Shown: positions 59,931-64,000 of the stretch, one piece after another
Position numbering within the stretch: position 1 is the first letter of the stretch
How the letters are laid out: each line of letters begins with the position of its first letter
Assembly (NCBI RefSeq): GCF_006483455.1
Contig: NZ_PPPU01000005.1
Coordinates: 62,001-126,000 of the forward strand
From: Methylomonas koyamae
Lineage (GTDB): Bacteria; Pseudomonadota; Gammaproteobacteria; Methylococcales; Methylomonadaceae
Length of the DNA stretch: 64,000 nucleotides
Reading direction: 5' to 3'
Notes under the pieces: generated by a model
What the model was told of the DNA's origin: nothing
Seen by the model: the letters and a program-made list of their open reading frames with translations, nothing else
Databases searched by the model: none
Program-made: the position numbers and the translations under genes

Positions 59931-60509
59931 TCATTGCGGCAGCTTTTTGACTTCGCCGACTTTTTCGAAGTCGGCACCGACACTGATGATGAAGCTGGTG
60001 ACCTGTTCGATGCTCATTTCGGATTTAACCACTTTCGATTCGTGGACGATGATGGCAAACCCGGATGTCGGATTTGGAGAAGTCGGCACAAACAGTACGT
60101 ATCGATCGTCGGTTTTGTTGGTCACGTAAGCCGGCACCCAAATGCCCTCTTTCGGATACTCGACATAAACCACTTCGCGCGGTTCCTGCAACTGGTGGCC
60201 GGCAATCATGTTCACCAGTTTTTTGGTGACCCGGTAAATCGTACTCAACAGCGGAATGCGTTCGATCAGATGCTCGAACATTGCGATAATCGAAAAGCGG
60301 CCGAGGCTTACGCGGTGGCCGACATAAGTGATGGTGGCGAAGCTGGCCGCAAATAGCAGAAAGGTCACCAAGTAGTTGTCTGAATAACCGTATACGAACT
60401 GGAACAAATCGGTCAGCCGGTCTTTAACGAACAGCACGATTTGCACGATCACCATAATCGGAATGAACGCTAATACGCCGATCAGGGTGTGGTTCAGAAT
60501 TTTCTTCAT
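59931..60509 (-). CDS. DUF502 membrane protein
   Basis: A 192-residue protein with two N-terminal helices (about 9-28 and 47-66), then a soluble domain with RIPLLSTIYRVTKKLVNMIAG and VLFVPTSPNPTSGF. These are DUF502 hallmarks; function is unknown. Confidence 0.9.
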   Translation of the reverse strand: MKKILNHTLIGVLAFIPIMVIVQIVLFVKDRLTDLFQFVYGYSDNYLVTFLLFAASFATITYVGHRVSLGRFSIIAMFEHLIERIPLLSTIYRVTKKLVNMIAGHQLQEPREVVYVEYPKEGIWVPAYVTNKTDDRYVLFVPTSPNPTSGFAIIVHESKVVKSEMSIEQVTSFIISVGADFEKVGEVKKLPQ

Positions 60510-60610: not shown

Positions 60611-61699
60611 CTAACGCAGAATTCTGAACAGCCCCCGCGTCGCTACCGCCATAACCAGCAGAGCCGGCCCGGCAAACCCCAGCAACCCCGTCAATGCGGT
60701 TTGACTGGCGCTGGCGTCCCAAAGCGTCAGCGAACTGTTTAACGATATATTGGACGGCGCCAGAAACGGGAACATGGATACGCCTAAGGTCAGCACTGCC
60801 AGCGCCAGCGCCAGCGCCAGCGCTAACAACGCCCAATACGCCCGATCGAACTTACACAGCACCCAGGCACCGATGCCGGCCAGGAAAGCCAGACCGGGGA
60901 TCACCCACAACGCCGGCTCGTGTTCGTAATTATCCAGCCACAAGCCGTCGCCGCGCTTGACGAATTTAGCCAACGGATTGGAAACGCCGTCCGGCAGGAT
61001 TTCGGTAGTGACGTGGTAGCCTTCCAAATGGGTAATCCAACCGCCACACAAAGCAAATAACAATAAAAACAGAATTACCGTAGTTTGCGCCACCGCTTTT
61101 GCGCGTAACTGTAACGCAGGATCGCCGTGCAATTGCAAATAGACTGCTGCGTAAGCGGCCAACAACGCCAGACAACAGGCCGCAACCAACATTGCAAACG
61201 GGTTGAACAGGCCGGCCAGACTACCCAAAAAAGCGATATGCATGTCGCTGCTCAGATGAAACGGAAAGCCCTTCAACAAATTTCCCGCCAGCAGGCCCAA
61301 CACGACGACGGGCAATAATCCACTGAGAAATAGCGCCTTATCCCAATACGGCAGCCAATCCGGATGCTCAAGGCTATTTCTAAAGTAAAGACCGATCGGC
61401 CTGATACAGACGGCCAGTATCACGCACAACAGCAAATTCTGGAAGCTGGAAAACACCACGGCATAGACCGTGGGCCAGCCCGCATACAACACCGCGATCA
61501 CTGCAGCCAGCCAGGCTTGATTTCCCGCGCTGAGCGGCGCCAGTCTGGCAGCGATCTGCCGCCGTTGGGGTTCGGACAACTGCAAAAACGGCAACAACAG
61601 CGCCACGCCCATTTCCAGACCGCTACTCAACGCAAAACCGACCGTAAACAAACCGAGCAGTCCCCAGCACAACAAGCGCAAAATATCGTAATCAAGCAT
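60611..61699 (-). CDS. cydB: Cytochrome bd-type oxidase subunit II
   Basis: A 362-residue membrane protein of the CydB family, about eight helices. The N-terminus MLDYDILRLLCWGLLGLFTVGFALSSGLEMG aligns with E. coli CydB, where FAVTDGFDMG carries D26 and D29; here these are Ser and Glu. GNQAWLAAVIAVLYAGWPTVYAVVFSSF follows the family. It overlaps the upstream cydA gene by eight bases. Confidence 0.88.
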   Translation of the reverse strand: MLDYDILRLLCWGLLGLFTVGFALSSGLEMGVALLLPFLQLSEPQRRQIAARLAPLSAGNQAWLAAVIAVLYAGWPTVYAVVFSSFQNLLLCVILAVCIRPIGLYFRNSLEHPDWLPYWDKALFLSGLLPVVVLGLLAGNLLKGFPFHLSSDMHIAFLGSLAGLFNPFAMLVAACCLALLAAYAAVYLQLHGDPALQLRAKAVAQTTVILFLLLFALCGGWITHLEGYHVTTEILPDGVSNPLAKFVKRGDGLWLDNYEHEPALWVIPGLAFLAGIGAWVLCKFDRAYWALLALALALALAVLTLGVSMFPFLAPSNISLNSSLTLWDASASQTALTGLLGFAGPALLVMAVATRGLFRILR

Positions 61700-63086
61700 C
61701 GCCGCCCTCCTGAGCTGACGCCGCTCCCTGTTTTATCAATTGCATCGCCAGCAGAATCGCCAGGGCCAGTAACCCGGAATACGCTAAGGCGTAAACAGCC
61801 AAACCGAGTACCAAGTCGCTAGTCGTTAAAGTCGATACCGCCAACCACGTCGGCAAAATGTCGACCACAATCCAAGGCTGGTCGCCGAATTCGGAGATGA
61901 ACCAACCGCCAACGCTGGCCAACCAAGTAGCAGGCAATGCGTACATCGCCGACTTCAGCACCCACGGCTGCCGGCTGCCGGTCACGACACCGAAACCGGC
62001 TGTCAAAAATGTCACTAATGCCAACACACCGAACACGATCATGGCCTTATGCCCCCAATACAGGGGCGCTGCCGGCGGCAAACTGGCTTGCGCCGCCTGC
62101 TCAATTTGCGTCGGACTAGCATCGACCACACCGTCTCGCCAACGTTTCAGCAACAATCCGTAACCAAGATCGGCTTTAGCGGCACCGAATTCCTCCCACA
62201 ATTGCGCTTGCGGGTTATCGTCGCGCAATTGTTGCAACATGGCGTAAGCGCGGACACCGTTTTCGATTCGTTGCCGGTTTTGCGCCAGAATGTCGTCGGC
62301 AGGCAGGCCGTTAATTGCCATCAGCTTGCCGCGCTGAAACGAACTTTGTTTGTAAATGCCGGCGTCTCCCAACAACAAGGTAGCGACAATCGCCAGCAAG
62401 CCCAGCCCCACTGCAATGGAATACGACGGCCCAGACAACCCCGTTTCGGCCGACCTTAGCCGGTAATAGGCGCTGATAGCCAACACGAACCCGGCTGCCA
62501 ACGCATAGCTGGAAAGCAAGCTATGGGCGAATTTGGCCAGCGCCACCGGATTGCATAACACGGCACGCCAGTCTGCCATCTCCATCCGCAACGCCTGCAC
62601 GTCGAATTCGGCACCGACCGGATATTGCATCCAGCCGCTGGCGACCGAAAAGCCAAACAATATCAAATGGCAACCCAAGCACACCGCCAGGGTAGCGAGT
62701 AGATGCGCAAAGCCACCCAACCTGTCCCAGCCGTACAACATCCAGCCCAAAGCGTTCGCCGCCGTAAACAAGCCAGCCAAAACTCCGACCAGCACCGGCC
62801 CGGCAAAGGCATCTCCGGCATAGTGAGCAAAATACGACCAATTGCCACCGAATTGGAACAGCATGGCCACACTCGACGCTAGACTCAATCCGAAACTGAG
62901 TGCGAACAACTTGCCCCAAAACCGGCATAAGGTTTGGTAATCGCCCCGGCCGCCAGCCAGCCCCCAAGTTTCCAATACCAGTAAGAAAAACGATAAGCCT
63001 ACCGTCAGCGGTACAAACAGAAAATGCTGTACTGCATTGATCGCAAACTGCGAGCGAGACAATTCAATAACCGTTTCGGAAACCAT
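61692..63086 (-). CDS. cydA: Divergent cytochrome bd-type oxidase subunit I
   Basis: A 464-residue CydA homologue. Heme ligands equivalent to E. coli H19 (NAVQHFLFV), H186 (KFAHSLLSSY) and M393 (GHKAMIVFG) are kept. In contrast E99 and E107 are replaced by Gly and Ala (LVGVLAGLFTAANALG), the quinol-site E257 by Asn (KLMAINGLP) and R448 of the GRQPW motif by Asp (FGDQPW). The Q-loop is about 46 residues shorter than in E. coli. It is thus an unusual bd-type oxidase whose electron donor may differ. Followed by cydB with overlapping frames. Confidence 0.88.
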   Translation of the reverse strand: MVSETVIELSRSQFAINAVQHFLFVPLTVGLSFFLLVLETWGLAGGRGDYQTLCRFWGKLFALSFGLSLASSVAMLFQFGGNWSYFAHYAGDAFAGPVLVGVLAGLFTAANALGWMLYGWDRLGGFAHLLATLAVCLGCHLILFGFSVASGWMQYPVGAEFDVQALRMEMADWRAVLCNPVALAKFAHSLLSSYALAAGFVLAISAYYRLRSAETGLSGPSYSIAVGLGLLAIVATLLLGDAGIYKQSSFQRGKLMAINGLPADDILAQNRQRIENGVRAYAMLQQLRDDNPQAQLWEEFGAAKADLGYGLLLKRWRDGVVDASPTQIEQAAQASLPPAAPLYWGHKAMIVFGVLALVTFLTAGFGVVTGSRQPWVLKSAMYALPATWLASVGGWFISEFGDQPWIVVDILPTWLAVSTLTTSDLVLGLAVYALAYSGLLALAILLAMQLIKQGAASAQEGGDA

Positions 63087-63249
63087 TCCTACCTCTAGGC
63101 CAAGCTCAAAATGGCGGCAATTATAAAATTATCCGCCCGTTTGTCTGCGTTTTTCTCGATCAAGTCGCATTATATCGGCCGCCAGACCATGGAGAATAAG
63201 CGGCACTGATATACACTTTGACGGACTACGGCCGCGTTTACGACACTCC

Positions 63250-64000
63250 ATGAAGCTCCCGCCCCGCTGGATAATCGGACTGAAAATCATTGGCTTGGCG
63301 CTACTTTACGCCGGCTTGGCCAAGCTGGTATTGGCTTTTTTTTCCGACCGCGGAAACGTCACACTGATCTGGTTTCCGGCTGGCCTGGGGCTGGCAGCAT
63401 TTTTGTTGAATGCCAAACATTATTGGGCCGGCGTACTGTCAGGCGCTTTCATAGCGGGTTTATTGGTCGGCGACTCGTGGACAATCTCGGCCTTTATTGC
63501 GGCCGGCAACACTCTGGAATCGTGGATTGGCGCTTGGCTCCTGCTTGGCAACCCTGGTTTTTCGATCAAACTGCGCCACCCGAGCGACTTCGCGTGGCTG
63601 GCCGTCACCGGCGCGGTTGCCGCCTGTTTCAGTGCGCTGATCGGGCCGATGGCGTTGTTGCTGGGCGGTTATCTGACTCAAGACCAGTTGTTTCCGAGCA
63701 TGCTGCATTGGTGGATGGCCGATTTGTTTGGTATCGCTTTAGTAACCCCTTGCATTCTGATTTGGCGAAAATGGCCAACTGGCTGGTTCATCGTCAAACG
63801 TCTGCCGGAAACTGCCGCCTTCTTGGCGCTGAGTTTTTTCAGCGGCCAAGCGATATTTCTGAGTTGGTGTCCGGATGTAATCAGCGGTTACGCCCGCGGG
63901 TATTGGACTTTTCTGTTTGTGGTTTGGGCGGCGGCTCGCTTCGGGCGCCACGGCGTCATGCTCCTGATTGGCATGACCGCGATCCAGTCTCTGTGGGGAT
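63250..64000 (+). CDS. MASE1-domain membrane protein, 3' end outside the window
   Basis: The frame is open from ATG 63250 to the window end, about 250 residues visible. It has about seven or eight membrane helices with NVTLIWFPAGLGLAAFLLNAKHYWAGVLSGAF near residue 36, typical of MASE1 sensory domains, and WWMADLFGIALVTPCIL later. MASE1 is usually followed by PAS, histidine kinase or GGDEF/EAL domains; which one cannot be told here. It is divergent from cydAB. Confidence 0.85.
   Translation, partial: MKLPPRWIIGLKIIGLALLYAGLAKLVLAFFSDRGNVTLIWFPAGLGLAAFLLNAKHYWAGVLSGAFIAGLLVGDSWTISAFIAAGNTLESWIGAWLLLGNPGFSIKLRHPSDFAWLAVTGAVAACFSALIGPMALLLGGYLTQDQLFPSMLHWWMADLFGIALVTPCILIWRKWPTGWFIVKRLPETAAFLALSFFSGQAIFLSWCPDVISGYARGYWTFLFVVWAAARFGRHGVMLLIGMTAIQSLWG

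Follow-up and report, generated by a model that had tools for sequence, protein, structure and literature searches.

Cytochrome bd reportedly has two groups of relatives, OR-N and OR-C, set out by Murali in 2021, and to our knowledge OR-N systems contain no CydB. Parts of PMC10839748, PMC12342949 and PMC13189123 present OR-N as CydAA', which is thought to form from two CydA-type subunits, and a section of PMC10839748 proposes cytochrome c as the electron donor of these OR-N relatives. The nearest solved relatives of the gene pair described here are E. coli bd-I and bd-II, the former a quinol oxidase of the long-Q-loop (qOR1) type. As outlined in a portion of PMC13189123, the Q-loop lid spans residues 259-306, the quinol is contacted by Tyr243 and Arg298, the proton path consists of CydA K53, K57, E107 and E74 together with CydB D105 and D58, and short-Q-loop bd enzymes function without the lid extension. 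The cytoplasmic proton path is also described in part of PMC6853902.

The locus lies in the window, by which we mean the whole 64,000-nucleotide stretch of Methylomonas koyamae DNA that was analysed, within one contig (C54) of a 4.5 Mb genome (G000). On the minus strand, cydA' (61692..63086) encodes a degenerate cytochrome bd subunit I of 464 amino acids that matches the Pfam family Cyt_bd_oxida_I at 309.8 bits and is 35% identical to E. coli CydA. The adjoining cydB' (60611..61699, minus strand) encodes a subunit II of 362 amino acids that matches TIGR00203 at 264.2 bits, above the family cut-off, and has lost the proton-path residues D58 and D105. The two reading frames overlap by 8 bp and form a two-gene operon. 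This pair is a full-length cytochrome bd paralog: the same genome carries a second, intact cydAB on another contig (C8), with a CydA that is 67% identical to that of E. coli. The locus is also found in records of M. fluvii EbB, LW13, SURF-1 and M. koyamae R-45383. Titles and abstract openings yielded no literature on this paralog. Words starting with "cyd" are absent from the main texts of PMC12607906, PMC6373157 and PMC13274454, and a search of PMC8951039 for residue names found none.

AlphaFold2 models of both subunits have E. coli CydA and CydB as their best structural matches. The CydA' model (pLDDT 83.5) aligns to the CydA of E. coli bd-II and bd-I with a TM score of 0.90, and the CydB' model (pLDDT 83.1) aligns to E. 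coli CydB (6rko_B) with a TM score of 0.92. Stretches with pLDDT below 50 fall at residues 81-85, 412-417 and 461-464 of CydA' and in loops of CydB' at 238-242 and 314-323. The models thus predict that both subunits retain the bd fold, with a bias in that direction because the input alignments contained intact homologs.

Beyond the fold, the pair shares with E. coli bd-I the two-gene operon and its descent, and in the window species the heme ligands are also the same. Mapped onto E. coli CydA, the window CydA' keeps the heme ligand H19 (H21 of CydA', 63024..63026, minus strand, as for the following), the heme b558 ligands H186 (H188, 62523..62525) and M393 (M349, 62040..62042) and the heme ligand E445 (E399, 61890..61892), and it also keeps D239, Y243, K252 and W441. 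Elsewhere it departs from the qOR1 pattern: E74 is Leu, E99 is Gly, E107 is Ala, R391 is Lys and R448 is Asp, and the qOR1 combination of K252 with E257 is broken by Asn at position 257. Since the alignment to E. coli CydA runs without gaps over residues 6-259, these changes are substitutions rather than shifted residues.

In CydB', D26 is replaced by Ser and D29 by Glu, although the first change is uninformative because 26 of the 70 intact rows have Gly at that position. More telling replacements, absent from the original prediction, are those of D58 by Ala and D105 by Tyr; of the 70 intact rows, 68 have Asp or Glu at position 58, and 68 have Asp at position 105. In the CydA comparison set, which comprises 74 rows and includes E. 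coli and one CydA' (L056), E107 is present in 73 and R298 in 72. All four acidic residues of the six-residue proton path (E74, E107, D58 and D105) are therefore replaced in the window pair, by Leu, Ala, Ala and Tyr. The prediction that the losses strike residues of quinol oxidation and proton delivery thus holds, and it extends to nearly the whole CydA'B' family; that the capacity-bearing residues for both steps have been lost is well supported by the alignments.

The predicted shortening of the Q-loop is likewise borne out. The 50 residues between E. coli positions 257 and 308 are reduced to four, GLPA (residues 260-263, 62298..62309, minus strand), which stand in place of E. coli 258-307. 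The deletion removes the lid with Arg298, and Tyr243 is retained in the window CydA'. The junction has four residues in 35 of 36 CydA' and none in the other (G043), whereas 72 of the 73 rows in the intact set have the 50-residue lid. The exception, L056, is a mis-sorted CydA' that we kept in the residue table and excluded from the trees and from the identity and conservation comparisons.

A profile built from 14 lid-less CydA', applied to 237 genomes of the taxonomic family, returned at least 36 one-piece, lid-less CydA' among the matches listed (to E of about 6e-103). Of these 36, 34 belong to the genus, which has 37 genomes in the set, and two to another genus (g9), and the idea that the paralog is limited to the species of the window was rejected. 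A CydB' profile finds CydB' in 36 of the 37 genus genomes; the genome without a match (G033) is 81% complete. In a class-level search of 369 genomes, the window genome had the only one-piece lid-less match among the matches listed, and in a phylum-level draw of 398 genomes, where the window genome was the sole representative of its genus, the window CydB' scored 570 bits and the runner-up CydB 374. One g9 genome, G043, is an outlier in which the CydA-like gene keeps E107 and has no adjacent CydB; its CydB' is encoded on that contig at a distance of about 217 kb.

In an unrooted CydA tree of 36 CydA', 36 sampled intact enzymes and E. coli, all CydA' rows fall on one side of a single branch with support of 98/99. 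The 38 CydB' also group in the unrooted CydB tree, with support of 88/87, which is below the strong mark. Both trees set the degenerate group beside intact enzymes, and several rows are long-branched in both. A single loss event at the base of the group is the simplest reading.

We next turn to selection on the pair. Nei-Gojobori estimates of dN/dS across 11 genome pairs, one of them within the window's species, range from 0.034 to 0.244 for cydA' and from 0.015 to 0.200 for cydB'. Judged from these 22 comparisons (0.015-0.244), both genes are shown to be under purifying selection, and the pair is thus maintained. The balance between the subunits is reversed relative to intact enzymes: CydB' is the more similar subunit, by identity, in 567 of 595 degenerate pairs (35 rows), whereas CydA has the higher identity in 2270 of 2278 intact pairs (68 rows), the roughly 70 intact rows being mostly returns of a search with a CydA' query and so not an even sample. 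The intact pattern also holds for Methylococcales-type pairs (818 of 820), a set picked by record titles that includes a few MAGs named only to class. The genome's own intact pair (L001), whose CydB is incomplete in the stretch used, was left out of the identity and Methylococcales-type sets.

Conservation is also distributed unevenly across the membrane. Sides were assigned from hydropathy topology, with the CydA boundaries partly set by hand on the nine-helix layout of CydA. Mean consensus in CydB' is 0.81 in periplasmic segments compared with 0.71 in all intact CydB, 0.65 compared with 0.76 in transmembrane segments and 0.58 compared with 0.71 in cytoplasmic segments, a contrast equalled in 2 of 361 circular shifts. 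Against Methylococcales-type intact CydB only, periplasmic consensus is equal rather than higher (0.809 in both), and transmembrane (0.649 versus 0.841) and cytoplasmic (0.577 versus 0.845) consensus are lower; against this control, only the drop outside the periplasmic loops distinguishes the CydB' group. The periplasmic side of CydA' also drops least, with a weaker effect (11 of 463 circular shifts). Relative to qOR1 enzymes, constraint has thus shifted to the periplasmic loops of CydB', where it is tightest and which the original prediction does not consider. Like the OR-N and OR-C relatives, the pair is without a quinol site; unlike OR-N CydAA', it has a CydB', which is encoded by a gene overlapping cydA' and is the better conserved subunit.

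This pattern extends to divergent members. In the most degenerate pair (G019, L227:3526-5900), CydB' still has the consensus residue at 63 of 69 periplasmic, 37 of 52 transmembrane and 8 of 23 cytoplasmic positions. G001 shows less of a contrast (53 of 69, 35 of 52 and 15 of 23). Across ten divergent CydB', periplasmic retention runs from 43/69 to 66/69 (the latter in G021 and G029), and the lowest value belongs to a CydB' interrupted by a contig end (G010).

Within the constrained surface, eight loop residues (window numbering) are fixed in 38 of 38 CydB', that of G019 included. Two of them, K143 and H148, lie in the TM4-5 loop (61235..61285, minus strand; GNLLKGFPFHLSSDMHI), and six, E226, H229, K245, R249, D256 and H260, in the TM6-7 loop (60914..61027, minus strand; LEGYH...SNPLAKFVKRGDGLWLDNYEHEP). 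A further loop, TM8-9, occupies 60704..60772 on the minus strand (FPFLAPSNISLNSSLTLWDASAS). The fixed histidines H148, H229 and H260, with their acidic neighbours, could form a metal site, a candidate suggested by residue conservation; the constraint could also be structural, for instance reflecting loop packing. We considered whether the three-histidine signature was unique to the degenerate group and rejected this: among 69 intact CydB, His occurs at the three positions in 38, 21 and 24, respectively, and at all three together in 9. The signature is also present in four CydB of sister genus g26 and in both phoBR-linked CydB of sister genus g16, though not in a third g16 genome, G050, which has Asn at position 148.

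From where selection acts, we infer a non-oxidase with a periplasmic function of CydB'. The reading that we favour, with confidence somewhat above even, is that a bd oxidase has been repurposed as a membrane complex that no longer works as an oxidase and whose remaining task is located on the periplasmic surface of CydB'. The pair would descend from an intact long-Q-loop (qOR1-type) methanotroph quinol oxidase and would have been repurposed in Methylomonas. The sequences show that the lid with Arg298, E74, E107, E257 and CydB D58 and D105 disappeared at the root of a single group or close to it, and that the heme ligands drift and have been lost in several lineages. The proteins presumably still fold and pair up into a bd-like heterodimer of the inner membrane that, going by its residues, would neither oxidize quinol nor feed cytoplasmic protons to O2. 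The retained function would sit on the periplasmic face, in CydB' loops 4-5, 6-7 and 8-9 and what remains of the CydA' Q-loop, where CydB' may bind a putative periplasmic partner or ligand.

Intact enzymes of sister Methylomonadaceae bear on the age of this surface. The same eight CydB loop residues occur in intact cydAB of g26 (G467, G466 and G060) and g16 (G552 and G548), and these enzymes have the checked CydA catalytic residues and the 50-residue lid that CydA'B' has lost. As these residues already occur in intact enzymes, they predate the loss, and the CydB surface is thus older than the loss of oxidase function. In the CydB tree, g26 rows lie nearest to the degenerate group and g16 rows further off. 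A more far-reaching version, which we hold tentatively, is that CydB, commonly regarded as the structural subunit, has a function in binding a periplasmic ligand or partner that does not depend on oxidase activity, that was present beforehand in the intact bd oxidases of certain methanotrophs and that has persisted after the oxidase in Methylomonas, with CydA' becoming a heme-poor scaffold. As to gene arrangement, intact cydA and cydB are not adjacent in G466 and G060 (about 4 kb apart in the latter, L217:5460-12197), and G467 has two intact cydAB pairs in tandem (L214:5295-11859).

The lid with Arg298, E74 and CydB D58 and D105 are absent from every aligned member of the degenerate group, and E107 and E257 are each kept in 1 of 37 CydA'. 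The heme ligands have a looser distribution. The original prediction that they are kept describes the window CydA' well and fails as a family hallmark, as H19, H186, M393 and E445 occur together in 18 of 37 CydA'. H19 is replaced in 12 of 37, by Tyr in nine and by Gln (G030), Asn and Pro in one each; E445 is lost in 6 of 37; and G019 has Pro, Ala and Ala at H19, H186 and M393, with Glu kept at 445. Retention of H186 with M393 (29 of 37), D239 (28 of 36) and K252 (29 of 36) makes a heme b558 role possible for most of the family. In the window species the hemes are probably still bound, yet they are probably not the reason that the family persists; a residual redox role is possible in that one species, where every axial ligand is present.

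It had also been suggested that the protein takes electrons from another donor or has a gas-related role. For the window clade either is possible, but the ligands are not family-wide, which speaks against both as the conserved reason for keeping the genes. In an alternative-donor oxidase, loss of the lid would expose heme b558 to a periplasmic cytochrome c, much as for the donor proposed in OR-N, and O2 would be reduced at the other heme pair. The window CydA' keeps the four axial ligands, D239 and K252, H186 and M393 persist together in most of the family, and at 9 of 20 loci phoB is preceded by a gene belonging to one sequence cluster, whose single scanned member is a fusion of SCO1/SenC, MauG peroxidase and cytochrome c. 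However, the proton path is without E107, E74 and CydB D58 and D105, H19 and E445 are lost in the members counted above, and no cytochrome gene of this kind was found at the window locus, so we consider this oxidase unlikely.

Handling or sensing of NO, CO or H2O2 by heme, uncoupled from energy conservation, would fit the high-spin heme ligands retained in the window clade. The nine CydA' with Tyr in place of H19 come from related genus genomes (G023, L038; G028, L039; G025, L040; G006, L041; G013, L043; G011, L194; G024, L201; G031, L204; G035, L205), and a Tyr-ligated heme is possible in these. Tyr-ligated heme occurs in catalases. A gas or peroxide role is nonetheless quite unlikely for the family: its ligands are not kept throughout, with G019 lacking H19, H186 and M393, and no known gas-stress gene is among the recurrent neighbours of CydA' loci, namely phoBR, a GGDEF gene, DUF502, pncC, an M48 peptidase, dapC/dapD and phosphoketolase.

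The pair might instead remain a quinol oxidase with a rebuilt quinol pocket, given that Y243, D239 and K252 are kept in the window CydA' and that short-loop enzymes work without the extension, according to the portion of PMC13189123 cited above. Across the family, Y243 is found in only 16 of 36 CydA', alongside the near-complete loss of E257 and E107, and this makes retained quinol oxidation improbable. A decaying pseudogene pair, as the fast evolution of CydA' and the lost catalytic residues might suggest, is scarcely credible given dN/dS of at most 0.244, CydB' in 36 of 37 genus genomes, a common -10-like element, no internal stop in any of the 36 listed CydA' matches, and single stops in the CydB' matches of G639, G034 and G005 that by coordinates are the ends of the reading frames themselves.

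If, as we favour, a former oxidase now serves as a membrane complex acting through the periplasmic surface of CydB', the group would provide a natural separation-of-function series, running from intact enzymes through pairs that have lost catalytic residues and kept heme ligands to pairs that have lost most ligands, with the later stages still under selection. It would show what cytochrome bd can do besides respire and point to a new role of CydB. It would also make cydAB genes in methanotroph genomes unsafe evidence of low-oxygen respiration.

Upstream of cydA', a -10-like hexamer, TATAAT (63120..63125, minus strand), lies 39 nt before the start codon and by its consensus match is a putative promoter. 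TATAAT occurs at -34 to -41 in 33 of 36 CydA' loci, against an expectation of 1.0 when these 80 nt are plainly shuffled. In this respect, too, CydA'B' differs from sister intact enzymes, as no TATAAT near -40 was found in five intact operons of four relatives (G552, G548, G467 and G060).

A MASE1-PAS-GGDEF gene (63250..64000, plus strand) is divergent from cydA' and extends past the window end; after it, beyond the window edge, come phoR and phoB on the cydA' strand. Of the 36 CydA' loci, 30 have phoR upstream in the same orientation as cydA', starting within 5.2 kb, and in 29 it is joined by phoB. phoB-phoR also lies directly upstream of intact cydAB in G552 and G548. At 16 of the 36 loci the GGDEF gene separates phoR from cydA'; these loci all belong to that half of the CydA' tree in which the window CydA' falls. 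We rejected Pho-box control by PhoBR, as an 18-letter Pho-box pattern matched shuffled sequence as well as it did the real one at its best, and likewise set aside phoBR linkage as a cause of function, the surrounding gene order being conserved anyway and no regulatory site having been found. PhoU-family genes are present elsewhere in the genome. The sequence cluster upstream of phoB is represented by the scanned fusion gene (L035:2698-4725) and by members in L036-L043.

Directly downstream of cydB' is a gene for a DUF502 protein (59931..60509, minus strand), and a DUF502 gene is downstream in 21 of 36 CydA' loci. Of 71 intact cydA loci, 6 also have a DUF502 gene nearby (L063, L066, L068, L071, L098 and L101), and the link between DUF502 and cydAB may thus be old. 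A gene for phosphoketolase (XFP) follows cydB', in the same orientation, at nine of the 36 loci (L046, L048-L051, L193 and L195-L197).
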